Assembly (NCBI GenBank): GCA_037951105.1
Contig: JBAMJV010005485.1
Span: forward strand, 62,001 to 126,000
Direction: 5' to 3'
DNA length: 64,000 nt
Origin: Echinarachnius parma
Taxonomy: Eukaryota; Echinodermata; Echinoidea; Clypeasteroida; Echinarachniidae
This document shows, piece after piece, positions 875 to 62,849 of this stretch. The notes under the pieces were generated by a model. That model saw only the letters and a list, made by a program, of their open reading frames with translations. It was not told the DNA's origin and did not search any database. The position numbers and the translations under genes were made by a program. Each line of letters opens with the position of its first letter. The stretch's first letter is position 1.

Positions 875-985
875 CAAGTCTGAATCAATTCCATAGATGC
901 AATGCCTTGTGTTGGAGTCATAGTCCTTCCTGGCTTTCTCTGCTCGGATGAAATCCATGATCTTGTGTTCTCCCTCACCAGGTGT
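875..985 (-). CDS. XRN1: XRN1-like 5'-3' exoribonuclease, coding exon 5 (downstream copy)
   Basis: This 111-bp exon (37 codons, phase 0 at both ends) starts after TTTTGTACAG and ends at TTG before GTAAGT. It reads TPGEGEHKIMDFIRAEKA, followed by NTRHCIYGIDSDL. In the XRN family this segment carries four of the metal-binding acids: both Glu of GEGEHKI (residues 172 and 174 here) and both Asp of GIDSDL (202 and 204). They coordinate Mg2+ for stepwise removal of 5'-monophosphorylated nucleotides from decapped mRNA in the cytoplasm. The human match is about four residues longer upstream, so numbering shifts by four. The next exon should lie beyond the left edge. The minisatellite occupies the intron that follows. 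Splicing is inferred from sequence only. Confidence 0.93.
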
Positions 986-1677
986 CTGTACAAAACCAAA
1001 CAAATTATTCATAACAGGGAATAATTTTCCTCCTCAAATTTGATTAGCAATTTCAGCCGATGGATAAATATTTCAAATGAAATTCTGTACACTTCTATGG
1101 AAGAAAACTGCTACACAAAAGATATTTTGTATAGCAGTCATGCAAAAATGCATAGCAAATTGCGATGCGATACATGGGAAGCAAGGAAAGGTATCTTGTG
1201 GTAGGATTTTAACTAGCATCCTGAACACTGCATATCAAGAGCTTGACTAATAATAATAATAACAAGTCAACGCAAAGCGTACTAAGGCTGAGTCATTACG
1301 GATATTTTATAAACCCGGTTCCGATCGTTTTGCAACGGTCGGAACCCGATATTCCGATTAAAAAAATAAATGTTAAAAAATTCCAAACACCCTGTAGTGT
1401 TGTGGGAATCACACTGGCCTAGGCGCGAGCCTATATGTGCCTACTACTTGAAGGAAAATTTAGCAACATGTATAATTTTCTCTTATTCAAAAAATGACTA
1501 GTAAAAAGTTAGGTCATGTATATTCATGACTCATGAGTCATGAATATTCATAAGATAATTTTTGACTAACCACTTGTTTTATATGAGAAAATTGTATATA
1601 ATATGCTGATAAATGCTACTTTAAGTCCCGGTTTCGTTTTTTTCGGAAACGGGCTCTGTACAACAAAAAAAAATATA
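986..1677. other. XRN1 intron 4, distal part
   Basis: AT-rich intronic sequence with no coding signal. From about 1,283 it contains the end-like motif AAGGCTGAGTCATTACGG and CCGGTTCCGATCG-type sequence. This resembles the termini of the hAT-like element at 11,969-12,948, so a decayed relative is likely here. Confidence 0.5.
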
Positions 1678-2821
1678 TACCGTATTTGTCGGTGTATAAC
1701 CCGCACCTTTTTTCTCAAAAAAAAGCTCCAAAATGGGGGGAGCGGTTAATACACGGAGATAGGAAAATTGTACACGCAAATTGCCTAGCCAGCGCCGGGC
1801 CTTAATTACTACACGGAGATAAGATTCACAAGTGACCAAAGTCCACCTCAGCAAGGCATTCATACTCATACGATGCACGGAAAATACAAGCATATTCCCC
1901 CCAAAACAAGTCATGCAGTGTCTTTTATGTTTCTCTTTTACCTCTTCCTAAATATTGCTCGTTGTTGCTGCGAAAGCGGCTTGGAAGATTCACGATCTTA
2001 GTACGAATCCTAACATGCACCCGCGCGACTGGCCGAGCAGCTCAGGCGGGAATTCTCTTTCCTGACGCGACCCCCGGCCGCCGCCCCGCCGGTGCGCGCT
2101 GGCGGTGTGCATGCTAGCGCTGCAGGTAGCACAGGCGCGCATTCGTTCAAGTGAAAGGCCACGCCGCTGAATGCACACACGTGTGCGATTTCCGCATGTG
2201 CTAAATAAGAAATTGGTACGTTGTACACTGTAGCACTCGATATGTCATCAAAATTATGCTAAACCATTGAGTGCTAATACTCAAAATAATAATAATAATA
2301 ATAATAATAATAAGAATACCAGCTTTCGCCATGTCTTCAGACAATGCACTCGCAAGTAACGATCGTAATTTCTTATCCCCTGAAACAGTTTTCAAGAGTA
2401 GATTCAACATAATTTGAACTAGAAAGAAGGAATAACATTTAAGGTACAGTTTTTTTTAAATCTCCGTTCTGATTGTTTTATTGGTGAAATCTTCGTTTTG
2501 TTGTCTAACGTTTTATGTAGTCCCATGTGTAGTGATCCGTGTGGCAAATTCAACAGATGTTATAGATTCTTCTGCTGTGAAGAAGGCCTGATAATTTTCT
2601 TTATTTACTTCGGAGGCTTCAGTAAATAAAACAAAATTCATAGGCAAAAATTCTCTGATAGATAAGCTATTTTTGGTACCTTTCCTAAGAAAATGCTGAC
2701 CATCTAAAGACTAAAAATCAAGAATTATACTATCAAATTTTTTTTTTTTTCATGGAAAAACGGCCAAAGTTGGGTGTGCGGTTAATACATCGGAGTGGGT
2801 AATACACCGACAAATACGGTA
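1678..2821. mobile_element. TA-flanked inverted-repeat element (TACCGTATTTG family)
   Basis: The ends are inverted: TACCGTATTTGTCGGTGTAT at the left, and the complement of the same motif, ending ACAAATACGGTA, at the right. TA lies at both edges, as expected for Tc1/mariner-like non-autonomous elements. Inside each end is a second, similar inverted block with GCGGTTAATACA. The interior has a GC-rich stretch near 2,040-2,170, an (AAT)n run near 2,286-2,312 and no transposase. Confidence 0.75.
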
Positions 2822-3274
2822 TATATATTTTCGCATATATATTTAATGAGCTATGACCTTTGACCTACTCCGAAATCGAACTTAGGCTGTATTTTGATAC
2901 CATGTACCTTCGCATCAAATTTCATTAAACATTAATAAAGTTATCGAACGGAAACCAGATTTGTTACGGAAGTATGGACGGACAGACGAAGTTACTAAAT
3001 CCCCTCCGACTTCATCCGCGAGGGGATAATAATAATACAGGTTACTTATATAGCGCTATTCACAACGTATCATAGCGTTTACAATTATAACAATTAAAAC
3101 AACAAAAATTACAAGACAGACCTTTCTTTGTTTTGGGGGCAGTGTTAGCACAACCAACAAGCTAAACTTCTTGATTCTACTTATCCAGTTTTAGGTGTCA
3201 GTCTAGATATGCCTCAATTCATTTGTCGTTCGAAAGGGCGATTAACAACAAATTCTGAGTGACATTTCACCCAC
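2822..3274. repeat. Decayed TGACCTTTGACC-type repeat followed by a LINE 3' tail
   Basis: At 2,850-3,030 there is TGACCTTTGACC followed by a stretch ending ATGGACGGACAGACGAAG, the same plan as the elements at 30.1, 45.7 and 49.5 kb. At 3,027-3,070 lies (AAT)n followed by TATATAGCGCTATT, the inverted 3' tail typical of CR1/L2-type LINEs or SINEs using them. No reading frame is left. Confidence 0.6.
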
Positions 3275-3470
3275 CTCATGTCCTGACAAGAAGACCCTAA
3301 CTCCCTGCCACTTGGTGTCGCTTGTGATCTTCATGTTGACCAGGTACTTGAGCTGTTCTTGGAGTCGCACCATGAAGGGTGTTCCTGGAGTGATGCAGTT
3401 AGCATCAAATCTCTTCTCATCAGGGAGAGTCTCTCCCCTACTTATAGCCTCCTCCTCCTGTTCTTCTGTC
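3275..3470 (-). CDS. XRN1: XRN1-like 5'-3' exoribonuclease, coding exon 4 (downstream copy)
   Basis: This 196-bp exon starts after AATGTGTAACAG and ends at GAG before GTGGGT. Its first base completes a Gly codon split by the previous intron, and it then encodes 65 residues. RGETLPDEKRFDANCITPGT and VNMKITSDTKWQGV match the XRN1 catalytic domain, where human has GETLPTEARFDSNCITPGTE. It ends SGHE, and the next exon supplies TPGEGE, so the join is seamless. The linker before RGETLP (TEEQEEEAIS) is acidic and three or four residues shorter than in vertebrate XRN1. Confidence 0.95.
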
Positions 3471-4024: not shown

Positions 4025-4093
4025 TCTGAATCTCCTTCTGTGCTGCTGGTTCATCTTAGCTCTGGGAGCCACACCATCCACGGCCATGAAGAA
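4025..4093 (-). pseudogene. Partial second copy of XRN1 exon 3
   Basis: Sixty-nine bases encode FFMAVDGVAPRAKMNQQ, followed by HRRRFR and then TAA. This repeats the second half of the true exon 3 about 200 bp away, including the catalytic-Asp segment. It is closer to the vertebrate sequence (PRAKMNQQRGRRFR) than the spliced exon is (PKAKLEQMRGGRF). There is no AG acceptor just before it, and AG-ATAAGA replaces a GT donor. I therefore read it as an unspliced duplicate. An alternative or formerly mutually exclusive exon is possible. Confidence 0.7.
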
Positions 4094-4221
4094 CAACAAG
4101 TATATAAACAATTTCCTGGTCGAACAGAGTGTATAGACGATGCATGTGTTGGCAAGTCTCTGCCAACTACCTGCTACATTGTCCATGCATTGCCTACAAC
4201 ACACAACTATATGTAACTTAC

Positions 4222-4322
4222 CCGAATCTACCTCCACGCATCTGTTCCAGCTTAGCTTTGGGCGCAACACCATCCACGGCCATGAAGAACACCTTGCGGG
4301 GCTTGATGATGCGGAACAGCAC
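4222..4322 (-). CDS. XRN1: XRN1-like 5'-3' exoribonuclease, coding exon 3 (downstream copy)
   Basis: This 101-bp exon lies between TGCCTGCCAG and GTAAGT. It encodes VLFRIIKPRKVFFMAVDGVA, then PKAKLEQMRGGRF and two bases of a Gly codon. VFFMAVDGVAP is an XRN hallmark. Counting from the initiator Met, its Asp is residue 86, the position of a catalytic metal ligand in XRN1. The end differs from most XRN1 proteins: KLEQMRGGRF replaces KMNQQRGRRFR, which removes one basic residue of the RRFR cluster. The neighbouring unspliced copy at 4,025-4,093 keeps the more usual version. Confidence 0.94.
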
Positions 4323-8736: not shown

Positions 8737-8740
8737 TTAA

Positions 8741-9136: not shown

Positions 9137-9230
<94 letters not shown>

Positions 9231-13473: not shown

Positions 13474-13605
13474 CTCTATGAAGTGGAAGATGGACCTGAA
13501 CATCTGTTCTTCAGTCATGCGGAAGTGGACGTCCTCATCGTTGGGATGCGTGCAGTTGTGGATGATGCCGTTCATATCCAGATACAAGTTGTCATACTCA
13601 GGTAT
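13474..13605 (-). CDS. XRN1: XRN1-like 5'-3' exoribonuclease, coding exon 2 (downstream copy)
   Basis: This 132-bp exon (44 codons, phase 0 both ends) follows TTTCTTGACAG and precedes GTATGT. It reads IPEYDNLYLDMNGIIHNCTH, then PNDEDVHFRMTEEQMFRSIF and HFIE. LYLDMNGIIH is the first signature of XRN nucleases. Its Asp falls at residue 35 counting from the Met in exon 1, the expected metal-binding position. Agreement of Asp35 and Asp86 with family numbering supports the start codon and every exon boundary used here. Confidence 0.96.
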
Positions 13606-19561: not shown

Positions 19562-19636
19562 CTGGTTCTCCTTGACGGCTTCACTGAGACACGGATATCT
19601 CTCTCTGTGCCATTTGAAAAATTGTGGAATACCCAT
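19562..19636 (-). CDS. XRN1: XRN1-like 5'-3' exoribonuclease, coding exon 1 with start codon (downstream copy)
   Basis: Seventy-five bases from ATG encode MGIPQFFKWHRERYPCLSEA, then VKENQ. XRN1 proteins start MGVPKFYRWISERYPCLSEVVKEHQ-like, so the start is secure. The family's N-terminal helix packs next to the active site, and its Arg/Lys residues contact the 5' phosphate region of RNA. WHRERYP replaces the usual WISERYP. The donor is GCAAGT, a GC-AG intron, and the next exon starts after a good CAG acceptor 5.96 kb away. The 5' untranslated region and promoter would lie above 19,636. Confidence 0.93.
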
Positions 19637-37193: not shown

Positions 37194-37264
37194 GTCCCCG
37201 TGGCCTAGTGGTTAAGGCATCGGCGTTCCAAGCCGGAGACCCAGGTTCGAATCCTGGCGGAGAC
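37194..37264 (+). tRNA. tRNA-Gly(UCC)-like gene, array copy 4
   Basis: Differs from copies 1-3 by one base in the T loop (TTCGAAT instead of TTCGAGT). This still fits box B. The following spacer is interrupted after about 115 bp. Confidence 0.86.
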
Positions 37265-37394
37265 CAATTTTTCGACCAGTGCCTTTTTTCATTTGGTGGA
37301 TTAAAAGGAGGAACATTGCTTATTAAGCTACGCCTACTATTATTCTTCCTTCTCAATCATTTATGATTACTCTTTGCAATTTTTTTCGTATATA

Positions 37395-41228: not shown

Positions 41229-42531
41229 CCCTATATAGCCCGGGGGGGGGGGGGCTAAAGGCCCCCCCTCGACATTTTTCGCGATAATTTTTTAACGCGA
41301 AAAAAACTTGCGCTGAAATTTCATGACTTTTTTCTATTGGGTCTTGCACATCTTTTGAAATAAAATTTTTGAAAATCGGACCTACCGTTACGAAGTCACA
41401 TGACCTTTTGTCTATGCATGTCAGCCCAAAAATTGCTCAATTTTGTGACTTGTGTACAAAACATATGGAAATATCAGTTTTCATAAAAAGAGATATATCA
41501 TTGGTTATTTGGTCTTGTTTACATTTTAGGTGTTTGTTTTGGGGTTCATAGTAGTTGATTTATCGTTAGAAATAAAATAAACAACAAAAACAATAAAATA
41601 CATAAGCTAAAAAAACAAAGAAATACATAATAAATTATAAAAACAATAGAAAACATAAGGAAGAACCTGGCTCTTCCAAATTTGTTTGTTGTATTATTAT
41701 TCCAAATGGTCTAAAGAACATATGTAGTGAAAACCAATGTTCAATTATGAAGAATATATGATTTATGGGTAAAAATATGAATTTATGACCTTATTTGCAT
41801 AAATTACCATAATTATGCAAAAATAATGCATTTTTCAAAAAATTTAAAATTACCATAGTATTCTATACACTTCACTAAACATGCGTGCAAGTTTTCGCGG
41901 CGAACGGCCGCTTTGCGGCCGAGATCTTAGGGGGGGGGGGCCAAATTAGCCCCCCCCCCCCCGGCTATGCATTTTCAAAATAGCCCGGGATATACAGGGT
42001 GGCCCAAAAAAAACGGAACGGGGCACTTCCCAAAATATAATACCACAATGTTTATGTTCATCGGATAGGGTGTCCTTTCCAATGAAAAACGATACCAAGA
42101 ACAGTAATTTTGGTCAGGTCGTTTTTGTTTAAGGACGCAGTGAGTGAGACCATGTCAGGTGCCGATTTATGTCGATTTCGACCTAGTCAATGCCAGTTTA
42201 ACCGCACTCCTTGCCCGTAATACCATTCAGCGACCAGGCCCATTCTCTCGGCACACGACTGAGTGCACACTAACAAAAGTGCGCAATGCTCAACGATATG
42301 AACGGCGGTTCGTGCAATTCATCAAGCCTTCGCTCAATACAAATTTACGAAAAAGAGAACCTGACATGGTGTCACTCACAGGGCCCTAAAACAAAAACTA
42401 CACGACCAAATTGACTGTTCTTGGTATCGTTGTTCATTTGAAAAGACACTCTATCCGATGGACATAATACATGTGCTACTTTATTTTGGGAAGTGCCCCG
42501 TTCCGTTTTTTTTGGGCCACCCTGTATAGGG
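41229..42531. mobile_element. piggyBac-like TTAA element inserted in the Gypsy fossil
   Basis: TTAA at 41,225-41,228 and 42,532-42,535. The left end is CCCTATATAGCCCGGG. The right end is its inverse with one mismatch once the nested element is set aside. Opposed G and C tracts (GGGGCTAAAGGCCCC-like) follow inside each end. CCC at a TTAA target is the piggyBac pattern. No transposase. Confidence 0.85.
41995..42524. mobile_element. TA-flanked CAGGGTGGCCC element, copy 2, nested
   Basis: Same family as 37,395-37,934. It lies between TA at 41,993-41,994 and 42,525-42,526, inside the right terminal repeat of the piggyBac-like element. The interior GGTCTCACTC/GAGTGAGACC and CGGAACGGGGCACTTCCC arms are shared. 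Confidence 0.9.
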
Positions 42532-44483
42532 TTAATATCTGACACAATGTGGCCTAGATAGCAGACCTTCGTCTTGAATAGATGACACTTCTTCTGTTTC
42601 AATTTCAGGTTCTATTGTCGAAGTCAGTGGAATACTTCCCTCAGGCGGGTAAGTTCTTGTGGTATTGCCTTCCCGAAAATGATTAAATCATCTAAGTACA
42701 CGAGTAGTGTTTCCCAATGAAGTCCAGCCAGTACTTTATCCATCAGTCTCTCAAATGTAGCACGGGCATTACATAAGCCGAACGGCATCACGTTCCAGGC
42801 GTCGAGTCCATTATCTGCTACGAATGCTGATTTTGCCTTAGCATCGTTGTCTACTCCGACTTGCTAATATCCACTTGCTAGGTCAAGAGTTGAAAACCAC
42901 TGTGCTCCTGACAGTGCATCCAAAGTTTTGTCAATGCGTGGCAAAGGGTAGGCATCTTTGACTGTTGCTACATTAAGTTGCCTATAATCCACGCAGAATC
43001 GTTGAGTTCCATCCTTCTTCTTTTTTGACAAGGACTATAAAGGCCCATGGACTATCCGTTGGCTCTAAGAGTCCTTTCTGCAGAAGCTTGTCAACTTGTT
43101 TCTTTATCTTTCCTCTTTGTCCCAGTGGATGTTTCAGTGGCCGCTGTCTTATTGGTCGTTGAGATCCAGTGTCAATCTTGTGTTGGACTAGATTAGTCCT
43201 TCCAATATCGTCATCTCCACTTGAAAATACATCTTGGAACTCCGCTTTACAACGTCTTGGCAATACTGACTTGGTATTTCTTCCATGCTTCTTTCCAGTA
43301 AGTCTTGTAAGTGCTCAGGCACCTCTAAATTAGTTGGCGTTGAGTTAGTTGGTACTTCTGCGACTTCGCTGCTGTCGAAAAGTGTCATTGATGCGATCTG
43401 TGTATTCTTCCGTATGACCTTGTTTGAGCTCGATGAGTTGAATATCCTAACAGGTACGAATTCCTCGCCTGTTTTTATGAGTGATCTTGCCACCAGTAGA
43501 CCTTTCTTTCCAAGTTGTTGGGCATTTCCAGACTCTATAAATCCAATGGAATTTGACTTTATTCTCTCTTTCGTTGTCCCAAGAATTACGACTTCATGGC
43601 CAGCTGGAATTGTTAAAGTCTCAGAGGCGGATATACGGCAAAATTACTTCTCTCCTATCTAAGTTTGACATTCCACCTTTCCGAGTTGAGTGGCAAGTTC
43701 AAAGTTGATAAGATCTATCTTGGCTCCCATTCTTGCTAAGGTGTCTAAACCAAGGATTCCATCGCCACTCACGTCAGCTACTAAGATTGTACTCAACCCT
43801 TGTTTGGGCCAGTTGACATCTCAAGTGTGACTGATCCATCAAGAGGAAGGGGCGTTCCATCCGCTTAGTGAGCCTGTACTTCTTAATGCTGCAAAGGAGG
43901 TTTTCCCTCCATAAGTTTGTACAAACATTTGTATATGTAAGAATCGGATGCGCCTGTATCTACTAAGAACTTGTATTCTTTGCTGTGAATGTGCACTGGT
44001 TCCTCCCCCTGAGATCTCGGCCGTCGAACGCGTGGCCGCCACAAAATTTGGCACACAGATAGCTTGCAACATAATCTACAAGACTGCATTGTTATTTTTT
44101 TGAAAATAATCAATTTTTAATTAATTATGCAAATTATGCAGAAATCCCTTTTTTGTCTGTAAATCACTATATATTGCTCAGAATATGCTAATTTTGTGCA
44201 TGAATATTCTTTATGACTTAATTAACGGTATACCCAGTCATCGCAAATTTGGTCTTAAAAGTTGCGCAAGACTTCAATGAAAAAACTCCTGAAGTCGCAC
44301 GGCCTGGTAAGGGTTAAGGCGTTAAGAGTAACATAAAGTACTTTCAAGAGGTGGACTACGGAATGAAATAATTTTAGGCATCTGCCCATGGTTTATTGTA
44401 CAAAAATGCTTTCTCCACAAACTTGTCACCAACCTTCAAAAAGTAAAAGCGCTGAATTATCACAAGAAACAAAATTGTATAAC

Positions 44484-44579: not shown

Positions 44580-44675
44580 TCATGGATGGGTTATTTGTAT
44601 GACCACCCTTTTATATTACTACATTGGTCTTTATAGACAGGTTTAGGGGCAAGAAACCCTTTTTGGTCTACTTAC

Positions 44676-45023
44676 GCAATTCTCAACGCTCTGTTCCTTC
44701 CCACCCGCTTTTGCTGAGGATTTAGCTGAAGGTTTGGCAGAGGCACTAGTAGTCTTTTCTTTGTCAGCAGTCTGTCTTGGCTGGCCACCTCTGGCTATTC
44801 TCTGACTAGCCGTATTCTGCTTTGCCCTTGCGCCACTGCCTTCTGTTAACCTCTGGCTGGTGGCAGATCCTACTGCTTCTTGAGATCCCTGCTGGGCGGA
44901 GGGAATCTTCCCCGGTGCTTGCATGCCAGAGGCTGGTTGCTTAGCAGCAGATGCCTTCGGCTGGGTGGTTTTAGTGGCTGCAGCTTCAGCGTAGGACATT
45001 CGAGAATGGCTCGCATCCTTCCT
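44676..45023 (-). CDS. XRN1: XRN1 C-terminal disordered exon (exon G, upstream copy)
   Basis: This 348-bp exon (116 codons, phase 0) follows CATTGTCAG and precedes GTAAGT. It starts RKDASHSRMSYAEAAATKTT and is rich in Ala, Ser, Lys, Gln and Gly (KPSAKSSAKAGGKEQSVENC), with no hydrophobic core, so it is predicted to be disordered. In animal XRN1 the region after the SH3-like domain is long, poorly conserved and binds decapping and decay partners. The assignment rests on position, strand and phase after exon F, and on composition, not on sequence similarity. Later exons should lie at lower coordinates. 34,214-34,345 is one candidate. Confidence 0.7.
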
Positions 45024-45649
45024 CTGACAATGATTTACAAGGTTAGATATGTAAGTCTTTAATAATTATAAGACATATTTTCATCATGGTAAAATAAGAA
45101 GATACCTACTGTAAATGTATAACTTTGATATCACAGACTTTGATCACAGGTTTTTCATTATTTCTCCTTGATTTTAAGGGAGGTAACTTGATCCCTGTCA
45201 TTGGTAATGGCACAATTAGAACAATTCTTTTTTTTAATAAACAGTCAACTTGACTTAGCGTTCACCTGTCAGTAGATGCCGCATTGCCAATAAAGGCCAC
45301 CAAACGTGGATCCCCTGCAGAAATACACAATGTCCCAGATCCTGTTTTTAAAGGGCACCTGTCTACTACAGTGGGCAATTATCTTTGAATCCTTTCAGTG
45401 GTCACTGGTATTGCTCAACTCGAGTTGATCAGGTAATGCAACAGTAGACACGAGAACATGATAGCTGCCAATTTGAGGATCTGATATGGCACAATGATTG
45501 ATGGATTTGGACACTTTCCACAGGTTTCACTGTGTTTCATTTAGTATCTCAGATTCCTTCATTCATTACCTTGCTCTGATTGACTGCCTCTTGATTGTCA
45601 CTCTGTCCCCTTTGCTGGGCTCCTCTGGTTAAGCCCAAATTAGATAACG
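45024..45649. other. XRN1 intron, unassigned
   Basis: No exon or repeat recognised between exon G and the TGACCTTTGACC element. Confidence 0.45.
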
Positions 45650-46349: not shown

Positions 46350-46531
46350 CTGTGGCTTGACGTCTTCAGTTGACTTTTGTTGACCTTTGACCTTCTTCTG
46401 TCCATACGAGATGTTGATCATGGCTGTTGGGGGCATACGGTAGCCTCGCTTGCCGGAACATCGCAGCTCTAGGGCACCCTCAAACTCCTCATCAAACACA
46501 ACATCGTACAGCATGTCCAAAACGGTTGCAC
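46350..46531 (-). CDS. XRN1: XRN1 exon F, SH3-like domain (upstream copy)
   Basis: This 182-bp exon lies between TTGTGTCCAG and GTTAGA. After completing the split Gly codon it encodes ATVLDMLYDVVFDEEFEGAL, ELRCSGKRGYRMPPTAMINI, SYGQKK and a charged end (KGQQKSTEDVKPQ). Human XRN1 has VLFEVLFDEEFPGGLTIRCSPGRGYRLPTSALVNLS at this point, so identity is clear. The SH3-like barrel supports the catalytic domain structurally in XRN1. Confidence 0.96.
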
Positions 46532-48373: not shown

Positions 48374-48470
48374 TATGCCTGTGACTACACCACGCAACCC
48401 CAGAGGCACAGCAAAGCCCTCTCTGACGTTGATGATGCGATCAAACAGGTGGTAGGTTGCATCAGATTCA
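48374..48470 (-). pseudogene. Copy 3 of XRN1 exon E, donor removed
   Basis: Encodes ESDATYHLFDRIINVREGFA and VPLGLRGVVTGI in the exon E frame, then runs into the inverted-repeat element in place of GTAAGT. It is 198 bp from copy 2. Confidence 0.85.
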
Positions 48471-48564
48471 CTGATGGGGTTATTTGAATGACCACCCTTT
48501 TATATTACTACATTGGTCTTTATAGACAGGTTTAAGAGCAAGAAACCCTTTTGGGTCTACTTAC

Positions 48565-48668
48565 CAGTCTGTATGCCTGTGACTACACCACGCAACCTCA
48601 GAGGCACAGCAAAGCCCTCTCTGACGTTGAGGATGCGATCAAACAGGTGGTAGGTTGCATCAGATTCA
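48565..48668 (-). pseudogene. Copy 2 of XRN1 exon E
   Basis: Encodes ESDATYHLFDRILNVREGFA and VPLRLRGVVTGIQT with an intact GTAAGT donor. The only nearby acceptor (CCCATCAG) would give a 104-bp exon opening in a phase that exon D cannot supply, and the first 29 bases of exon E are absent. An open but probably unusable duplicate. A cassette with another partner is the alternative. Confidence 0.8.
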
Positions 48669-48762
48669 CTGATGGGGTTATTTGAATGACCACCCTTTTA
48701 TATTACTACATTGGTCTTTATAGACAGGTTTAAAAGCAAGAAACCCTTTTGGGTCTACTTAC

Positions 48763-48895
48763 CAGTCTGTATGCCTGTGACTACACCACGCAACCCAAGG
48801 GGCACGGTGAAGCCTTCTCTAATGTTGATGATGCGATCAAACAGTGAGTAGGTAGCGTCAGGGTCCGGGATGAGGTTACCCATTCCATTCATGGG
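48763..48895 (-). CDS. XRN1: XRN1 exon E (upstream copy)
   Basis: This 133-bp exon lies between TTGCCTCTAG and GTAAGT, entering in phase 0 after exon D. It reads PMNGMGNLIPDPDATYSLFD, RIINIREGFTVPLGLRGVVT and GIQT plus one base. The human equivalent is GVIPDRDAEFCLFDRVVNVRENFSVPVGLRGTIIGIKG, the start of the SH3-like domain. Two further copies follow at 198-bp intervals and a fourth at 44.5 kb. Only this one has both splice sites in compatible phase. Confidence 0.96.
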
Positions 48896-50316: not shown

Positions 50317-50478
50317 CATAAACCATCATGTGTGGTTTTATTATGCAACAGAACATATAGTGTAGAACTTACCCTGAACAGGAGATGTTGTCTCACTGAG
50401 AGTTTGACCCTCTTCTATTGACCATAAACCATCATGTGTGGTTTTATTATGCAACAGAACATATAGTGTAGAACTTAA
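50317..50478 (-). pseudogene. Decayed copy of XRN1 exon D inside a 102-bp tandem repeat
   Basis: 50,373-50,418 on the minus strand reads AGAGGGTCAAACTCTCAGTG, AGACAACATCTCCTGTTCAG and then GTAAGT, a degenerate match to exon D (GTCAAACTCGTC, CCTGTTCAGG). The surrounding ACCATAAACCATCATGTGTG block occurs twice, 102 bp apart. The second copy ends at the 3' end of the LINE. Confidence 0.75.
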
Positions 50479-53400
50479 TAATAATAATAATAATAAAAAA
50501 ACATTTTTATATAGCGCATAATCACAAAAAATAAATTTAAGTCTCTAAGCGCTTTAAAGGATTGAAAATATAGAAATAGGATAACAGACAGGGAGCGAAG
50601 AAAAGACAAGGTGAAATGAAAAATGACAAAACTTTGACATACAGTGTAAAACCTAATCAATTTACAAATTAAACAAATACGTTTTCAAAAGACTCTTAAA
50701 ATCATTTACTGTGTCAACATGCTTGAGATGGCTCGGTAATTTATTCCATAACTCTGCGGCTGCCAGTTGGAAAGATCTTGCACCGTAAAAATTTGTTGAT
50801 ATTATGGGGGTGGCTAAAAGAGATTTTGACTGAGAGCGAAGGTTTCTTTTTGGACAATATTTTGTTATCAACTGTTGTAAATAAGCAGGGCCTAATTCTT
50901 GCAAGCACATAAAAACCAAAATTAAAATCTTGAAGTCAATTCGCTGCTTAACCGGGAGCCAATGCAATTGTCGTAAGACTGGACTTAAATGCTCATTGAG
51001 TCGAGTGCGAGTAACCAACCTAGCCGCAGAGTTTTGTATTCGTTGCAACTTTTGAATCTCATTGTTAGGCAGACCATACAAAATACCATTACAAAAATCA
51101 AGCCGAGACATAACGTGGGCATGAACAAGCATCTCTGTCGACTTTTTAGAAAGAAAGGGACGAATTGTTCCAATCTTGTGCAAGGCAAATGAAGCAGCTT
51201 TGCATATTTGATTTACATGAGTTGACAGTGTCAGATGCTTGTCCAGTCTCACACCAAGGTTTCTAGCAGAGTCAACAGTTTGTTTCGAAGTACTACCAAA
51301 TGAGATACTATTGATCCTACCACACTGCCTAAATTTACTAGTAAAGTGAAGAACTTCGGTCTTATCTTCATTTAGTTTAAGACCATTATGCGCTGACCAA
51401 TTCTTAATGTCAGCCATACAGGTCTGGAGTTGCGCGATTGCTTCAGTCTGATGACCCTTTTCTACCAAAATATAAACTTGTGTATCATCAGCATACAACA
51501 TACCATTTAATTTATGTTTACAAATAATATCATGCAACGGGGCAACATAAAGGCTAAAAGCAATCGGGCCAAAAACCGACCCTTGCGGGACCCCGAGTGA
51601 AGATAACTTAACATCTGACTTGCAATTATCAATTACAACCGTGTGTGTCCTATTCTCAAAATATGATTTTATGAGTTCAAGAGCTGTACCACTAATACCA
51701 TATCTATCATGCAAACGAGATAACAATGTTTCATGTGCAATTGTGTCAAATGCTGCTTTATAGTCAAGTAGGAGTAGAATTGCCTCTTCACCTTTATCAA
51801 GGCATAGGAGGATATCATTGACAACTCTAATCAATGCTGTCTCACAACTATGATACTGTCTGTAGGCAGACTGAATCGTGTCATACAAGCTGTTGCTCTT
51901 AAAGGGTACCACCACCCAAATCTAATATTCTTATTATAGAAAGGTAACATCTTTAGTAATCCAATCCATCAACAAGTTCACAAAAATAGGTTTTCAGAAG
52001 AAAAAAAATATAATTGGAAAACGCATCACCATTCTAAAGCATGCGTTCATGCGGTCTGAATTGAGTAGACTACTGCGTGTGCAGGAAGCGAATCGCCCGG
52101 GATTATATTGCCTACAAACGTACGCGTGAATAGCATTGACGGACTAGCAAACCAGGAACCAGGAAATAGTAGTGGTTCCGTAAGTGGTGGAAATTAATTG
52201 CTTAGTTTATGAATTATACAACCCTTTGTAAAATGTTGGGTATCTATTTGATATCACAAAACAGTACCAAAACATATAGTAATGTGTTGTTATTTGCCCG
52301 GTGGTCCCCTTTAAGGTAACCAGTCAACTGATGAACCATGATCCTTTCAATTGTCTTGCCAAGAAATTTTAGATGTGAAATCGGTCTGTAATTTTTTAAG
52401 TCATCAGGATCAAGTCCAGTTCCCTTGATAATAGGTGAAATATGAGCCCCTGAATCAGGGAAGCGCCCACTTGTCAGCACCAAGTTAACTATCATTGTGA
52501 TGATTGGAGCCAGTTCATTAATGCAACTTTTTAGTAAATCAGTTGGGATTGGGTCCAATTCGCTAGTGGATGATTTTGAGCGGGAAATAACTGTTTCAAC
52601 CTGCAATGGAGATACATTTTGAAATTCATCAAACCGTAGATCTGTCCTCTGGAACATGACGTCATCGATTTCAGGACAAGATGAAGGATCAAGAGATGAA
52701 ACAATGTCAGCAGTTTTGTTAGCAAAGAAGGTACTAAAGCGGTCAGCTAAAGAAGGCCCATCGACATCATATTTTGGCAGTGTTTTTTGAGATCTCTTAC
52801 ACATGTTATTGACTTTGTGAAAAAATGATCTCGGACCACAGCCTTCTAGTTCCGTTGAGTAAAAAGCTCTTCTCACTCGGATTAAGACTGAATTATAGAC
52901 TGATGCCTCCTCTAGAAATATCTGATGATCAATGTCCAGCTTTGATTTCCGCCAACGTCTCAAGTCTTCGGAGTTTCCGTTTTGCACCACGACACTCATT
53001 AGTATACCAAGGCGAACCAGGTCTGGCAGTAATTGTCCTGATGGTAAGAGGAGCGCGATGATCAAGTATACCTTGTAGTGTAGATTCATACTGTTCAATC
53101 AAGTCATCGCTGTCAAGTTCTGTGTGACGCATGTATAACTCTGAGCTTACAATATCCAATCGAAAAGTGTCAAGATCAATATCCTTCAACTTTCTAAATC
53201 TAATCTTAGTCCTTACAGGATCAGGTTTGTTGACTGAAAGTTTGCACAGAACTGCTGAATGGTCTGAAGGCAGATAACTGGTGCACGAGATCTGGGAGAT
53301 GATGTCATCTGAAGCTCGAGTTATTATCAAATCCAGGGTGCGCCCTTTGAGATGAGTTGCAAAGTCTATGTGCTGAAGCAAATTGACTGATGATATCAGA

Positions 53401-54600
53401 TCAGAGAAGGCAGCAGCATCACGGTCGTTAGGGTCATTGATATGGAAATTAAAATCTCCTGCAATGACAAGTTTGTTGGGCTCTGTTATAAGTTTCTCTA
53501 GGAGAATGGCAAATTCTTCGAAGAATTTTGGGGTCGTAGATGTACGATCTTTTTTCCTTTGAGGCCGGTATACAACAACCAACCAAAGAGGTTTCTGATC
53601 CTTGCTTGAGATAAGGATGTCCATATACTCAAAAGAGTCAGGTTCACATTGTTTTTGTTGTTGTACTATGGTGAAGTTCTTGTGAAGAAAAATGCCAATG
53701 CCCCCACCAGCTCTATCCTTCCGAGGTAAGTGAATGAGCTGGTGGCTGGGTACGGATGAACTCACATCTGCCAAGCAACTGTTGTCCCTCGCATCACCAG
53801 TCAGCCAGGTTTCAGTTAGGGCTAGTATGTCAATGTGTTGAGCATTAACAAGATCGGATATCATGCGAGATTTATTTTTGACCGATCTCGCATTCCATAA
53901 TGCAAATGTCGAAAGAGAAGGCACATTTTATTTTTGCCATTCCCATCCTGCAGGGCTCCAGACGACTGCACTGAAGCTAGTTCTCGTCGTCTTTGAATTC
54001 GACGTCCACCTTTTACCCCCCGGTGGGTACGTCGTTTACGATGATATATTCAAGAAATTAGTCGTTTGCCAGGTTTTCGCATCAATTCTGGTGGTCGAAT
54101 TGAGTGCATGCAGTTCTGTTCTGGTGTATACCTTAGAGGATGACTTTCGATTACTGTTCTCCTTATTTTCTCCAAATACAGGGCCTGGATTGGGATGAAT
54201 ATCACCATGTTGAACCAGTTCTATACGAAAAGTACTTGTACTATTGGGATAGTACAGTATTCTACCCCCAGTGTAATCGCTGCTGCAGTCCTTGGTAGGT
54301 CTATTATAAGCATGAATAGACCTATTCGGATTAGTCCAGTTGAGGGAGATGGGGGAGCACACAAGAAGAATAGCAAGAGCTGTAATCCTCCGGATTAGCA
54401 TTGTGTGAGTCCAGGTCCACCATTCACGGTCAAGCCAAAATGAACACCAATACTGACTGCAGTAAAAGTATGGCTTCCTCACAAATTTACAACAAATTGT
54501 GGAAAAGTTGATGTTCAAAAGTATGGGGTTTCGAGTCCAAGAATCAACTTCAAAATAGTCCAGGCGATGCACCAGATAATTACAAACAAACTGGTACAAA
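50479..54600 (-). mobile_element. CR1/L2-type LINE, nearly full length, broken
   Basis: The 5' frame (54,599-54,036) has a hydrophobic segment (ALAILLVCSPISLNW) and the 2A-like motif GDIHPNPGP at 54,206-54,180. The endonuclease frame from 53,924 opens FALWNARSVKNKSRM and has ALTETWL, GGGIGIFLHK, LVIAGDFNFH and LPSDHSAVL, an APE-type nuclease. RT follows: DDLKNYRPISHLKFLGKTIE, LLLLDYKAAFDTIAHETLLS, GVPQGSVFGPIAFSLYVAPL and LYADDTQVYI, then LHWLPVKQRIDFKILI. The 3' end is (AAT)n before TATATAGCGC. A stop lies just before the endonuclease frame, there is a frameshift near 52,950, and a TTAA element sits at 51,903-52,310. The 417-codon RT frame is otherwise open, so the copy is fairly young. Confidence 0.95.
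51903..52310. mobile_element. TTAA-flanked AGGGTACCACC element inside the LINE
   Basis: 408 bp between TTAA at 51,899-51,902 and 52,311-52,314. Ends AGGGTACCACCACC and the inverse of AGGGGACCACCGGG. Removing it with one TTAA restores continuous LINE reading around HQLTGYL and SNSLYDTIQSAYR. Confidence 0.92.
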
Positions 54601-54632
54601 AATGTTGTAGTATGTCAAAGTAGTCCACTTAC

Positions 54633-54692
54633 CCTGAACAGGTGATGTGGTTTGACGAGTTTGACCTTCTTCTTGCTTGGAGCCTTATTGAT
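54633..54692 (-). CDS. XRN1: XRN1 exon D (upstream copy)
   Basis: Sixty bases, 20 codons, phase 0 at both ends, between TACTTTGCAG and GTAAGT. It reads INKAPSKKKVKLVKPHHLFR, matching human NNKKVRVTVKPHLLYRP. This basic linker joins the winged-helix segment to the SH3-like domain. Position, phase and order between exons C and E are as expected. A degenerate copy lies at 50.37 kb, on the far side of the LINE insertion. Confidence 0.9.
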
Positions 54693-56211: not shown

Positions 56212-57697
56212 CAATTTTTTTTGCTATAATCTTGGAAACAGTTTTTAATTTGTTCTAAATACATTACTGATGCGAAAAAGTAATGTTTCCATTTTTTATT
56301 TTTGGTCCCAGGGTGCATTTTGGCGATTTTAAAGATAATTAGCTAATTTGCATATTTGTGAAATACGGTCAGGGGTCATTTTCTATCTAGGAATAGTACA
56401 ATATTGATAAAAACTATTATTCTAGGGTATTTTGAGGCAAGGATTCCATTTCCGGTGCTCGTTTGTAAGTGCTGTACGGGAAACACTCTGAAATCCAAGA
56501 TGGCTTCCCCTAATTTGCATATTTATGAATATTATTGATTTTCAAGGGCTACAGCCCCTAATAAGCAATAATTCCGGATTATTATTTGTCAGTTATGTTC
56601 TAAGTATGTATGTAAGTATTTAAGATATCAAAGATGAGTTGCCATCATGGCAACCTCTAGCAATGCATATTATTTGCATAATTATGTATTTTACCTAATT
56701 TGCATATTCCCCCAAATCGAGTATATTAGGAACCCGGCAAGTAAAAAAGACAAGTAATACCACTTTTCCAAGGTTTTAGGGGGCAATGAATCCATTCATG
56801 ATACTTATTTACCTGTATCCCCTCGGGAACCCACATAAATCCAAGATGGCCGCAATTGTCATTTTAAAGTAAATAATGCTATTTGCTACTTAAATGGCAT
56901 TTAATTTATAAAAGTATGATTTGCTTACTTTAAGCAAACAACTACATTGTGATTCAAGTATTCTAGTTGCTCATTCCAATAATTAAAAGTCAAAACATTA
57001 TAATATCAATTTAATATAACCGAAATAATATAGTCGTGTATCATAACATGTGTAATTTAGGGAGCAGTCATCTTGGATTTGAGATGGATGCCATGGTGAT
57101 ACAGGTAAATAAGTATCAAAAATGGATCTGCTGCCCCCCAAAACCTTGGAAAAGTGGTATTATTTGTCTTTTTTACTTGCCGGGTTCCCAATATACTCGA
57201 TTTGGTGGAATATTGAAATTAGGTAAAATACATAATTATGCAAATAATATGCATTGCTAGAGGTTGCCACGATGGCAACTCATCGTTGATATATTAAATA
57301 CATACTTAGAACATAACTGACAAATAATAACCTGGAATTATTGCTTATTAGGGGCTGTAGCCACTGAAAATCAATAATATTCATAAATATGCAAATTAGG
57401 GGAAGCCATCTTGGATTTCAGAGTGTTTCCCGTACAGCACTTACAAACGAGCACCGGAAATGGAATCCTTGCCTCAAAATACCCTAGAATAATAGTTTTT
57501 ATCAATATTGTACTATTCCTAGATAGAAAATGACCCCTGACCGTATTTCACAAATATGCAAATTAGCTAATTATCTTTAAAATCGCCAAAATGCACCCTG
57601 GGACCAAAAATAAAAAATGGAAACATCACTTTTTCTCATCAGTAATGTATTAAGACCAAATTAAAAAATGTTTCCAAGATTATAGCAAAAAAATTCA
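56212..57697. mobile_element. Large palindromic element, arms about 740 bp
   Basis: The left arm starts AATTTTTTTTGCTATAATCTTGG and the right arm ends with its inverse. The arms mirror through CCAGGGTGCATTTTGGCGAT, GAGGCAAGGATTCCATTTCC, CCAAGATGGCTTCCCC and CAACCTCTAGCAATGCATAT to a centre near 56,940. Only a few mismatches separate the arms. No coding and no clear flanking duplication. The right arm is repeated at 63.1-64.0 kb. Confidence 0.88.
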
Positions 57698-57836
57698 CAA
57701 CATTTATTTATACTACATTAGGGGATATACTAAATGAAATGCAATTAGCTGTTGCGCCAACCGGCTCTTAACATCATGTCAATTTTCTGCTTCAACATTT
57801 ACTAGATATAAGTAAGTGAAACTAGCCAAAGTATAC

Positions 57837-58044
57837 CTTCTCGACCTCCTCTTGAATGAGGCTGATAACAGGTGCTTCCAAGTAGGGGGCGCCAATCTTT
57901 CCCTTGGGAGCTTTGCTGCATGGCTGCTCCGCGATCCACTTAATGACGTCATCCAGGTTGTAATCTACACCAGCAAACATCTCTTCTTCATACAGGTCTT
58001 CATTGTATCCCTTGACATTCAGGAAGTCCACTACTGCTGGAAAT
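57837..58044 (-). CDS. XRN1: XRN1 exon C, winged-helix region (upstream copy)
   Basis: This 208-bp exon lies between TTCCTTTCAG and GTATAC. The first base completes a Gln codon from exon B. It then encodes FPAVVDFLNVKGYNEDLYEE, EMFAGVDYNLDDVIKWIAEQ, PCSKAPKGKIGAPYLEAPVI and SLIQEEVEK. Human has ...NSQEDVFYEDDIWPGENENGAEKVQEIITWLKGHP...LDAAIVEKIEEEVEK. The agreement lies in the acidic DLYEEE/VFYEDD part, the IIKW(L) helix and the EEVEK end. Five partial copies surround it: four of the 3' half and one of the 5' half. Confidence 0.93.
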
Positions 58045-58151
58045 CTGAAAGGAAGGGCATACATTCAATGTAATGACCACAATAGATAGGCAACCATGAC
58101 ACTGAATTCCTTATAAACTCTAGTGTAATATGACAGACATTCAAATATCAT

Positions 58152-58275
58152 TATCCAGGTTATAATCGGCACCAGCAAACATCTCTTCTTCGTACAGGTC
58201 TTCATTGAACCCCTTGCCGTTCAGAAATATCGCTACTGCATGGTATCTTGGTAATTAATTTGAAAGAAAGGGCAT
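58152..58275 (-). pseudogene. Partial copy of XRN1 exon C, 5' half
   Basis: Minus strand reads AVAIFLNGKGFNEDLYEEEM, FAGADYNLDN, then diverges. The acceptor position reads TTCAAATT where exon C has TTCAGATT, so that splice site is lost. Confidence 0.82.
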
Positions 58276-58554
58276 ACATCAAATATCAGTACAGTAGTCT
58301 CTGCTTACTTGGGTAGGTTTTAACAAGGTATGTTTTCCTCTTAACAGTTGCACCTGATTAAGTGATGAAAAGGTTAAAAAACATAAGAAATGTTTGGTCA
58401 ACTCCAACCACTTTAACAGATGTACTCCATTAATTGTTACTCTATTAAGCAGAGACTACTGTGCCACAAATAATGGGCAACCATAACAAATGCTTGCAAG
58501 TGCATCAGTTCTATACCCGGGTATGTTTGGAGACAATAGAAGCAGGGTAGAATA

Positions 58555-60880
58555 GGCGGAGGGCCAAAGTCGAAAAAAGTGACTTTATAGGTTGCCAGAT
58601 CTCCACAACAAGTTTAGACCGATTTTAATTGCAAGTATTTTTAATGAGACAACATAATTCAGAGGTCTACCTCAAAAATTTTGTTGCGAACACCTCCAAA
58701 TCCAAGATGGCGTCCAACAAAGCAATTGTTTTGTCTTGCTATAATTGGCGAGATTTCCCTAACGACACCTCAAATCAGCATTATTTTGCAACCATATTAA
58801 AGACAATATAATTTCCTGTAATCTGATACCAAACACTATGGGGTTCAAGATAGTCAACAATATGAAATTATTGATTTACATAATTACGCATAAATCAATA
58901 ATTGCATTAGCAGTTGAATTAATACTTTTCAGAAAACTGTCCAATTATATCAACAATACTCTGTGAAAAATTCAAGTGTGTACCGTATCTGAACACAAAG
59001 TTATAGTACTTGGAAGTCAGCATTTGATATCGACAAAACGGGTAGTTTTGCATGATTTCTCATGCTGTACAGGGTGTCTCAAAAATGTGTAATCTTGATT
59101 ATACGATTTGTATACCAAATGATTGCGTCAATCTCGGGATACCTTCAATTCCAGTTAATATCAACAAAACCACCATTTCCTGTAATATGATGAATATTCC
59201 ACCATCATTTTGCAATCCGCGTAGATGTCGTGTCTGTCTTGTATTTATTTAACTGCATTTATCATGTTTATCATAAATCATGCGCTAATAATGAACTTAA
59301 TTCCACTCCACAAGGAGCATTCCAGTCAGCTGCATACTGACGCGCCTGCTGTGCATATTGCGAATTCGAATCATACTGGGTGCCCATGATGTGTTTAAAA
59401 CATTGTCAAGATCATGTTCATTATCTTGAGTAAGTGTTTTACTGAAGTACATAATATGCGGGACATAATATGTGCAGAGCGTATCTAGATTCGAACACAT
59501 CTTGATCGCAAGGCACGCACCCTTCATGCCCTTCATATCTTATTACATATATCTGGAGACCATACAGGTCTATACAAATAGGCTGACTTAGTATCAAATC
59601 GAAACAAACTCAATTGCTAAACCAATATGTACACCACCGAAAAGCCTCAGCAAGCCGAATGTTTATTTTTTGTGCACTACACTGTACTCGTGTAACCATG
59701 GTAACAACAGCCGATTATGGACAGAAATATACCAAATCACCAAATATTTCTTTTAAAAACTTAAAATTAGCAGGTTAACGGTGTCATTTTACATGTGATT
59801 TGTTTTCCTTCATGTTCACGCGAAAATTAGTGTGCATAATGCGGCTTGTAGTAGCCAGATATATGATTTATTGTATTTCTATTGTTGTTGTTACTATGGT
59901 TACAAATGTACAAGGTGGTACAAAAAGTTATTGTACAATAAACATAATAGCCTATTCAAAGTTTTCTTCGAACCCTGAAAAAGTCTAGCTAACTATGGTG
60001 TTCCAAATAATAATCATTTTAAAAACATAATTATCCAGATAATTATGGTCGGTCCAACTGTGAAGGACGCGCGCCTCTCATTCGAATATTGCACTAAATA
60101 GTACACTTTGTATAATGGATTTATTTTTGCAGTGAAATTACCAATACACTATTTTCGTGTATTGCAAACCGATGGCGGCATATTCATGACATAAAAGAAG
60201 GAAACTGAAGGTTTTATTGAAAACAGGTATAAACAACATGTCATTATTTAGGAGCATTTCTTGAATAAAGTCCGTAAACAAGAATTACATTTATTGGGGC
60301 ACCCTGTATAGCATTCGAAATCGTACAAAATTGCTGTATTTGTCGATATCAAATGCCGACTTCCAGTTATCATAACTTTTTGTTCAGATACGGTACACAC
60401 TTGAAATTTTCACAGAGTATTGTTGATATAACTGGGCAGTTTTCTGAAAAGTACTAATTCAACGCCTAATGCAATTATTGATTTATGCCGAATTATGTAA
60501 ATCAATAATTTCATATTTTGCGGGAAAATGCCTAAAATTTGAGTTTGGGACTAAAAATGACCGTGTTACATATCCTGAAACCCATGAAATTTGGTATCAG
60601 ATTATAGGAAATGTTATTGTCTTTAATATGGTTGCAAAATCATGCTAATTGTTGGTGTCGTTTGGGAAATCTCGCCAGTTATCTATAGGAAGTCAAAACG
60701 GCTACTTCTTTGGACGCCATCTTGGATTTGGAGGTGTTCGCAACAAATTTTTTGAGGTAGACCTCTGAATTAATTTGTCTTATTAAAAATATTTGCAAAT
60801 AAAATTGGTTTTAACTTGTTGTGGAGATCTGGCAACCTAGGTCCTTAAGGAAGCCACTTTTTCGACTCTGGCCCTCCGCC
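58555..60880. mobile_element. Large palindromic element with a TA element at its centre
   Basis: Ends GGCGGAGGGCCAAAGTCGAA and the inverse of GGCGGAGGGCCAGAGTCGAA. TAGAA lies next to both ends as a possible target duplication. The arms mirror through GTTGCCAGATCTCCACAACA, GAGGTCTACCTCAAAAA, GTTCGCAACA-type sequence, CCAAGATGGCGTCC and TTTGATATCGACAAA. The right arm has extra sequence around 60,520-60,600. Confidence 0.85.
59070..60306. mobile_element. TA-flanked CAGGGTG element at the palindrome centre
   Basis: TA at 59,068-59,069 and 60,307-60,308. The ends are CAGGGTGTCTCAAAAATGTG and the inverse of CAGGGTGCCCCAATAAATGT. Inner arms carry CATTCCAGTCAGCTGCATAC and unrelated unique sequence. 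Some further mirrored motifs occur (TTACTATGGTTAC and GTAACCATGGTAAC). No transposase. Confidence 0.75.
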
Positions 60881-61006
60881 TAGAAGCATACATCCTAGAC
60901 AATGGACTAGTCTTCATCTGCAGACCCATGAATAGTTACTATAGTGTTGTGAAGGGTTTTCAAATTAAATAATTTGTCTGAAAACCAATTTTTCTGTACT
61001 TGTTGC

Positions 61007-61605
61007 ATACCTGCCAACATTTAAAAATAAGAAATCTGAACCTTTAGCAGGGGTAGGGGGGCCCCCAGAGGCCCCCAGCGGGGTCATGGTCAAGGTCACG
61101 AGGGCAATTTTGAAGATTTTGAAGACAAAAAGCGCCCTCGTGAAAATGTTCATGAGGGCTGTATTGGGGCTCACAGGGGCTCTTATTTATTTTATTTTTT
61201 TTCATCGTTCTTACTGCTCAGATTCTAATAAATGATTATCGATATGTATCATGATGTAACCTAGGGTAATCTCATACTTGCCAACATTTGAAAGTCAGAA
61301 AACTGAACGCACATTGGAAGGGGTTCCAGGGACCCTAGTGGGGGTGCAGGGGATAACACCCATGGTGGGGGTTCAGGGGGCAAAGCCCCTGTTTCTGCAT
61401 GTTGTGAAACCCCATGATGCTTTTATTTTATGGGTACAAATAGTATAATTGAAAAGGGGGGAAAAAAACGCAAAAAAAAAAAAATGGAACGGTTGGCAAG
61501 TACCTGTAAATGTATGCATCTGAATATTCAGATTTTTTATGTCCTACAAAAGCAGACAATCAGAATATTCTGATTAAATCGGAACAACAGTTGGCAGGTA
61601 TATTG
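61007..61605. mobile_element. Inverted-repeat element ATACCTGCCAAC
   Basis: ATACCTGCCAACATTT at the left and GTTGGCAGGTAT at the right. An inner pair CTTGCCAACATTTGAAAG and GAACGGTTGGCAAGTACCTG suggests two related copies, one inside the other. The interior is rich in GGGGCCCCCAGAGG-type sequence. The same end motif occurs at 30,073. Confidence 0.65.
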
Positions 61606-61683
61606 TTGGTGAAATGGGACAACTAAAACTAAAACACTTAATTGATAACAATATTATTAAAGGGTGTTGGTTCCTTTAACCAA

Positions 61684-62146
61684 GAAGCAGGTAAAGCAGG
61701 TCCAGTGGCGTACCCAGGAATTTTTCAAGGGGGGGTTATTTCGTCAGAAAAAATATCTGTCAGCGGTGGGGGGGGGGAGGGGGGGGGGGGGTAGTCGTAG
61801 AAAAATGTCAAAGCCGAGGCAAAGTACCTACAAAATTTTCGAGACCGAGACCAGGTCAGGTCCGGTCTGGGAGGGGGGGGGAGGGGGGGGGGGGGGGGGG
61901 GTAGTTGTAGTAATTTTTCAAAGCCGAGACCGCAAATTTTCGAAATTTTCGAGGTCGAGACCAGGGTTTTTCGCACTTTTCGAGGCCGAGATCATCGATA
62001 AGGAGGGTCGAGACCGCTATAATAACCTGTTACAATTTGAAAAGGGGGGTTCATACCCCCCCCCCCCCAAACAGTCATTTTTTGGTCAAGGGGGGGGGGG
62101 TTTGGACCCCCCAAACCCCCCCCCCCCCCCCTGTGTATGCCTATGA
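61684..62146. mobile_element. Poly-G element CAGTGGCGTACCC
   Basis: CAGTGGCGTACCCAGGAATT at the left. The right end, CCCCCCCTGTGTATGCCTATG, is the inverse of the same class of terminus (CATAGGCATACACAG). The interior has three G tracts and repeated GAGACC and CGAAATTTTCGAG hairpin motifs. The apparent reading frame through it is glycine-rich and is produced by the G tracts. Confidence 0.6.
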
Positions 62147-62181
62147 GCAGGTCACATACACAAGTAGATAATGCAACTTAC

Positions 62182-62325
62182 TGTTTGAAGAAGTCTTCAA
62201 GGATGTCCTGAAGTGGTTCGGAGTATACCCATTTTGTCAGGCTAATTTGTCTTGTGAAGCCTGGTACCTCCATCTCACTCTTGTTGAATTTGAGGTTCAA
62301 TCCCACTTGAACACCCTTGTCACAC
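62182..62325 (-). CDS. XRN1: XRN1 exon B (upstream copy)
   Basis: This 144-bp exon lies between TGTTTTTAG and GTAAGT. It reads CDKGVQVGLNLKFNKSEMEV, PGFTRQISLTKWVYSEPLQD and ILEDFFK plus two bases. Human XRN1 reads HKANVGLNLKFNKKNEEVPGYTKKVGSEWMYSSAAEQLLAEYLE, so VGLNLKFNK and EVPG(F/Y)T are direct matches. This belongs to the non-catalytic domains after the nuclease core. The phase carries a split codon into both neighbours. Confidence 0.96.
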
Positions 62326-62733
62326 CTAAAAACAAAAGCAAGAGAGAAAGTTCACAGAAAGATTATTTCTTTAGAACTGTAGCAAGTAAATAATCTAAAA
62401 AAATTTTTTTTTAAATCTCAAAAAAAGTCACAAGCATTGAAATTTGTGTGGTGTGACATATTAGAAAACTATCCAGGGAGCCTCCCAAAAATCAAGGAAG
62501 GTTTGCATTTCTGTGTTTTTCATTATTATGTGAGTTATAATACAAACTCAACAGGGCCCCATTGCAGAAATAGTTGCGATTGATTGTTAAGTTGCAATTA
62601 ATTGCAAGTCACATCATGTGAGTAAATGCGCAAATCTATATATTCAAATGTGCATATTTTCTGACATGAAATTAAGTGCAAATTTGCAATTAATTGCAAC
62701 TCTTTCTGCAACAGGACCCTAGTGTGTACTTAC
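62326..62733. other. XRN1 intron between exons A and B
   Basis: Short AT-rich intron with GATTGATTGTTAAGTTGCAA-type near-repeats (TTGCAATTAATTGCAA). No coding signal. Confidence 0.5.
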
Positions 62734-62849
62734 GATGGACGAGGCCCTCTTTTGACGTAGACAGACCCAGTGATCCTTCCTATCTGCGTTGACGAGACCC
62801 CTAGATGCTGTGCAAGCTCATAACCCTCTCGGTACTGCATGGAATGGGA
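62734..62849 (-). CDS. XRN1: XRN1 exon A (upstream copy)
   Basis: This 116-bp exon lies between CTTTTTTCCCAG and GTAAGT. It reads SHSMQYREGYELAQHLGVSS, TQIGRITGSVYVKRGPRP plus two bases. It matches human HKYSIKYNPGYVLASRLGVSGYLVSRFTGSIFIGRGSRRNP. It is the most N-terminal exon of this copy in the window. About 900 upstream residues, including the whole nuclease core, must lie beyond the right edge if the copy is complete. Confidence 0.95.

Follow-up and report, generated by a model that had tools for sequence, protein, structure and literature searches.

How can the exons for the C-terminal half of a nuclease come to lie upstream of the exons for its N-terminal half on one and the same strand? 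The question is raised by a 64,000-nucleotide stretch of the Echinarachnius parma genome, bases 62,001-126,000 of contig C5479 (141,421 bases), which was analysed as a whole and is called the window in the following. The nuclease is XRN1, the main cytoplasmic 5'-3' mRNA nuclease, which to our knowledge is normally single-copy in animals. On the minus strand, exons 17-22 of one exon set, designated g1 (62,849 to 46,350), precede exons 1-5 of another, designated g2 (19,636 to 875). The order, the strand and the non-overlapping protein coverage described in the first-pass annotation, which was made from the letters of the window, were all confirmed. Two minus-strand members of an XRN1 cluster each contribute a part to the window: g1 its 3' exons, upstream, and g2 its 5' exons, downstream. 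We consider it highly probable that this cluster is real, that g1 and g2 are different copies within it, that it includes a canonical copy (P) as well as a derived pair (g2 and a further copy, M) with a changed 5'-phosphate pocket, and that it was built by recombination.

The exons of g2 found in the window are the following, all on the minus strand:

19562-19636, minus strand: exon 1 (ATG; MGIPQFFKW...), with a GC splice donor
13474-13605, minus strand: exon 2 (D35, H41)
4222-4322, minus strand: exon 3, encoding D86 and the changed 5'-phosphate pocket (KAKLEQMRGGRF)
3275-3470, minus strand: exon 4
875-985, minus strand: exon 5 (TPGEGEHK ... GIDSDL); the gene continues left of the window, C5479:60265-16423
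4025-4096, minus strand: relic partial copy of exon 3, with a canonical-looking motif and no GT donor

Left of the window exons 6 to 22 follow in order on C5479 (60,265-16,423), where the first-pass annotation had predicted the C-terminal half of the downstream gene. The complete model of g2 comprises 25 exons and 994 residues (C5479 81,636 to 16,423). All exons are open, 24 of the 25 donors are GT and that of exon 1 is GC. All 24 junctions of g2 are phase-compatible, as are the five over exons 17-22 of g1, so that the earlier claim of matching splice phases stands as a statement of consistency; it is not independent proof, because the splice sites were chosen by hand around homology matches. 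Exon 11 reads EYYKHDLDGMVLIPF and is 11 residues shorter than the version in P and on contig C4564, and the last modelled exon contains an SH3_12 match (C5479:16441-16545). The predicted coding frame runs across the gene from exon 1 to exon 22, although coverage is weak in two stretches. A 38-bp minisatellite at window positions 1-859 comes immediately after g2 exon 5.

The N-terminal translation of g2 (336 amino acids) was compared with solved protein chains and matched those of XRN1 with expectation values (E) of 1.8e-157 (9e70), 9.1e-131 (2y35), 4.6e-121 (3pie) and 3.2e-116 (6q8y), the next 10 chains listed lying at E 6.8e-84 to 4.4e-75. An E of 1.8e-157 to a solved XRN1 chain excludes chance for these frames. 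The XRN_N (PF03159) cut-off was passed by each of two g2 exons alone, and the XRN1-specific C-terminal SH3_12 domain is present in g2 and also in g1 (C5479:108413-108517). By these sequence comparisons g2 is assigned to the XRN1 type rather than to XRN2. The PF18334 profile gave no match anywhere, controls included, and was not used as it is uninformative. A separate XRN_N locus on another contig (C425:501721-511719), 45% identical to g2 where matched, is probably XRN2.

Searches of the whole assembly (1.2 Gb, 14,790 contigs) bear out the earlier suggestion of a duplication, since XRN1 is multi-copy in this genome. N-terminal exon sets were found on C5479, C472, C1804 (two), C2309, C99 (beginning with exon 3, at the start of the contig) and C4564. 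There are two C-terminal sets each on C5479, C1804 and C99 (one of those on C99 starting at exon 15) and further ones on C2309, C4564 and C8940, while C472 has just exon 22 of g1. On C1804 the copies M (minus strand) and P (plus strand) lie head to head with both halves present in each; as they share one contig, they are not alleles of each other. C2309 carries P plus exon 2 of M near the contig end, and its P agrees with that of C1804 at 100% (rounded) in all six pieces compared. C4564 matches P at 96-99% in eight of ten pieces, with exon 21 at 93% and exon 22 at 90%, and C8940 matches the copy C99p at 96-99% in five of five pieces. If C5479 and C472 hold its two alleles and the assembly represents one diploid animal, g2 is probably a third copy. 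With P, which looks canonical, the genome has a minimum of one canonical XRN1, and with g2 and M a derived pair.

The part of the cluster contributed by g1 consists of the following features:

62734-62849, minus strand: g1 exon 17
62182-62325, minus strand: g1 exon 18
57837-58044, minus strand: g1 exon 19
54633-54692, minus strand: g1 exon 20
50373-50414, minus strand: short second copy of exon 20
48763-48895, minus strand: g1 exon 21
48374-48673, minus strand: two exon-21 relics (tandem unit of 198 bp)
46350-46531, minus strand: g1 exon 22 (SH3_12 domain)
44643-45065, minus strand: frame of the g1 C-terminal tail
56932-62248, no strand assigned: segment carrying exon 19 plus part of exon 18, about 98% tandem duplicate (other copy 63120-68464)

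The tail frame is 38-41% related to two pieces downstream of g2 (C5479 12122-11802 and 11867-11583); the latter piece runs through a stop. The tandem duplicate was matched in two pieces, and its second copy runs past the end of the window to C5479:130464. From exon 17 to the contig end (16.6 kb) neither exon 16 nor any other upstream exon of g1 was found, only the duplicated pieces of exons 18 and 19, and the nuclease core predicted to the right of position 64,000 was not found there. In addition, whole-assembly searches, in which all first-look candidates were scored (48/48, 60/60, 81/81 and 86/86), left no N-terminal set that could be paired with g1. No 3' half is visible for the N-terminal sets on C472 (g2, ending after exon 14) and C2309 (exon 2 of M by the contig end), two sets which their position marks as alleles of g2 and M. 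With no upstream exon found in 16.6 kb and no fitting unpaired 5' half, g1 is possibly no more than a 3' fragment.

Two other explanations of the exon order have to be weighed. An assembly artefact, either a misjoin between window positions 19 and 45 kb or haplotypes placed end to end, could have permuted one ordinary gene, and the fragmented state of the assembly, with its 14,790 contigs, its allelic contigs and its mosaic patterns, is of the kind in which such errors would be looked for. We nevertheless regard this as very improbable. Contig C472, which looks like an allele of C5479, carries exon 22 of g1 upstream of the 5' exons of g2 just as C5479 does, and because an allelic contig repeats the order across the 19-45 kb interval, a misjoin is unlikely. 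Between C472 and C5479 47.4-109.2 kb there are 14 colinear pieces of more than 400 bases on the same strand, 13 of them at 94.6-99.8% and one, on the minisatellite, at 85.7%; the differences are large insertions and deletions, one small inverted piece and a rearranged tRNA repeat near C5479 97-99 kb. Moreover, g2 has its own exons 17-22 on C5479, so that those in the window are surplus. Over exons 17-22 (231 codons) g1 and g2 differ with a synonymous divergence (dS) of 0.342 and a nonsynonymous divergence (dN) of 0.106 (dN/dS 0.31), whereas the likely allelic pairs P1804-C4564 and C99p-C8940 have a dS of 0.05-0.10, and g1 and g2 are therefore not haplotypes of one gene. They share intron sequence, which marks them as genomic duplicates. 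As far as the present assembly can show, the order is real. What the first-pass annotation had called a head-to-tail tandem pair holds insofar as g2 continues leftward as its own gene and the exon sets belong to different copies, while g1 is unproven as a full gene. That g1 is such a gene, with its 5' half unassembled beyond the contig end, is a possibility that we take seriously and yet incline against. It is favored by six conserved exons which are open with usable splice sites and compatible phases at all five junctions, by dN/dS values of 0.28-0.40 against other copies, and by a contig that terminates 16.6 kb upstream of exon 17; the contig end (137.5-141.4 kb) found no matching contig among the best 40 of 7666 candidates, the first 1.5 kb of this query being a multi-copy repeat to which all matches on other contigs were confined. 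On the other hand, exon 16 sits 0.6-5.8 kb from exon 17 in all eight other sets and is missing here from 16.6 kb, its expected site is occupied by the duplicated pieces of exons 18 and 19, and no N-terminal set fitting g1 came out of the assembly.

The more interesting point, which was not part of the original finding, is a derived XRN1 branch with a changed pocket. In four aligned XRN1 chains the 5'-phosphate pocket consists of K93, Q97, R100 and R101, and P and C4564 retain all four residues. The pocket of g2 reads K93, M97, G100 and R101 and that of M reads K93, L97, G100 and R101; exon 3 is identical on the second contig of each copy (g2 on C472, M on C99). At 129 positions which are invariant in the four chains and covered in all copies compared, P and C4564 show three changes each, g2 shows 16 and M shows 19. 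The residues D35, D86, both Glu of PGEGEHK, D205 and D207, which we take to be metal binders, are present in g2, M, P and C4564, and H41 is kept as well. The solved chains themselves deviate at such sites, with A207 in the fly chain, presumably a mutation made to inactivate the crystallised protein, and with Gln in place of the second Glu in the Kluyveromyces lactis chain. The catalytic residues of g2, earlier described as intact, are so with respect to the metal ligands checked, but the pocket is altered (Q97M, R100G). Passages of PMC8850482 print the pocket as K93, E97, R100 and R101, assign to His41 the role of giving direction and state that E178Q is inactive, and parts of the same paper and of PMC3968743 describe the specificity of XRN1 for a 5'-monophosphate. 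Because two of the four pocket residues are changed, g2 and M are named XRN1 paralogues here and are not assumed to be 5'-phosphate exonucleases. The loss of two invariant pocket residues suggests a changed job for g2. Over exons 2-7 (286 codons) dN/dS is 0.34 for g2-M, 0.18 for g2-P and 0.29 for M-P; values well below 1 argue against long neutrality of the copies, which is not proof of current function.

We propose that g2 and M would be folded XRN1-type nucleases in which the metal site is kept and the grip on the 5' phosphate is weakened. Such enzymes would be less selective, less processive, or would act on other 5' ends, and they might serve other RNA targets or a regulatory role, with P left to ordinary mRNA decay. 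That g2 and M are active with altered 5' selectivity is a tentative proposal to which we give a little less than an even chance, and binding of RNA without processive decay seems unlikely to us. Rather doubtful is the wider idea that XRN1 has split in this lineage into a canonical decay enzyme and a conserved derived branch of g2 and M, its 5'-end pocket rebuilt for other 5' ends or for non-processive binding, with 3' halves still being exchanged; the other ends may be, for example, 5'-hydroxyl, triphosphate or capped with nicotinamide adenine dinucleotide (NAD). Decaying pseudogenes, in which the pocket changes would be plain degeneration, would explain the 16 and 19 changes at the 129 invariant positions (against three in P), the relic exons nearby and the 11-residue deletion in g2. 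This is improbable in view of the 25 open exons of g2 with their splice sites, the g2-M dN/dS of 0.34, the metal ligands checked being kept in both copies, and the alteration of the same two residues, Q97 and R100, in both. Partial relics lie just downstream of exons 3, 15, 19 and 21 (window 4025-4096; C5479:37224-37141, 19713-19642 and 16815-16700), and P, the canonical copy, has a relic after its exon 3 too. As exon 3 is followed by a further motif resembling it in g2, in its C472 allele, in C99 and in P of C1804 with C2309, a choice by splicing between a canonical and a derived form of exon 3, similar to Dscam, was considered. It was rejected and is exceedingly improbable, since the second motif has no GT donor in g2 and C99, is cut short in P, and in g2 would be put out of frame by the nearest upstream AG (counted by hand).

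The copies do not have one common history along their length. In a tree of exons 3-7 (five sequences) M and C99p are sisters with an ultrafast bootstrap of 100, whereas in a tree of exons 17-22 (eight sequences) M joins g2 (support 100) and C99p joins C8940 (support 73), and g1 groups with P and C4564 (ultrafast bootstrap 99). The 3' exons of g1 are closest to the canonical copy P. The pattern is not uniform from exon to exon, since for exons 19 and 21 the nearest relative of M is C99p. Downstream of M, the main pieces of C1804 6.0-8.8 kb match the DNA that follows g2 at 91.5-98.6%. On C4564 exon 22 is 99% like g1 and the nine other exons compared are 93-99% like P, and C472 agrees with C5479 at 82-92% at 127.3-129.7 kb (exons 13b-14) versus 97-99% just right of 133.7 kb. 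These comparisons suggest that the copies have swapped 5' and 3' halves. Such mosaics would result from unequal recombination or gene conversion in the region of exons 13-16, but also from chimeric contigs; the cluster with its fragments is probably the product of unequal recombination among the copies.

Apart from the missing 5' half of g1, several observations weigh against a cluster of this make-up. Contig C472 is part of the same assembly, and exon 22 is all of g1 that it reaches; it carries g2 exons only to exon 14 and then enters a multi-copy element, so that one haplotype may lack the 3' half of g2, or C472 may be misjoined there. Two less conserved stretches of g2 are covered by weak candidate exons only, and a frame break could therefore lie within them. 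The dS between g2 and M is 0.184 in the 5' half and 0.072 in the 3' half, and because the latter value falls inside the likely allelic range, these two copies separate cleanly only in their 5' halves. Some of the mosaic patterns could be assembly chimeras, and the altered pocket of g2 and M still contains K93 and R101.

The multi-copy element on C472 (122001-127200) starts right after g2 exon 14, and a copy at C99:102491-107698 is about 100% identical (among the best 32 of 7417 candidates). Between g1 and g2 the window contains four tandemly repeated tRNA-Gly(TCC) genes with a repeat unit of 403 bp (35629-37385), of which the C472 allele has three, one of them inverted, and frames for an LTR-type (long terminal repeat) reverse transcriptase and RNase H (40417-42863). 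Frames for a reverse transcriptase and an endonuclease resembling those of long interspersed nuclear elements (LINEs) lie between g1 exon 20 and its short copy (50662-54614); a frame upstream of them contains an NPGP motif, which we take to resemble 2A sequences. Elsewhere in the assembly, the single COX1 match (contig C14600) has an AAA codon at a position where Asn is nearly universal, which agrees with the mitochondrial code of echinoderms.

The dependence of XRN1 on a 5' monophosphate is central to the gating of mRNA decay, and a natural paralogue with a dN/dS well below 1, in which the metals are kept and the phosphate pocket is changed, would test how evolution can alter 5'-end selectivity. 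The locus also illustrates that gene counts in assemblies of heterozygous marine invertebrates can hide real clusters. In literature searches, judged mainly from listings, no account of a clustered or pocket-altered XRN1 turned up.

Unequal crossing over and gene conversion shape tandem gene clusters in general, and the copies described here likewise stand head to tail and head to head, seem to include 3' fragments, and have 5' and 3' halves with different relatives. XRN2/Rat1 has the N-terminal nuclease domain in common with g2, which is far nearer to XRN1 and possesses the C-terminal SH3_12 domain of XRN1. With animal XRN1 (Pacman in flies, 2y35; chain 9e70) g2 shares the nuclease region, the metal ligands checked, the SH3-like domain and the exon order. 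Animal XRN1 differs from g2 and M by its Q97 and R100 pocket and from g2 by the 11 residues of exon 11 that are missing there, and the gene, which we know as normally single-copy in animals, is present here in several copies.

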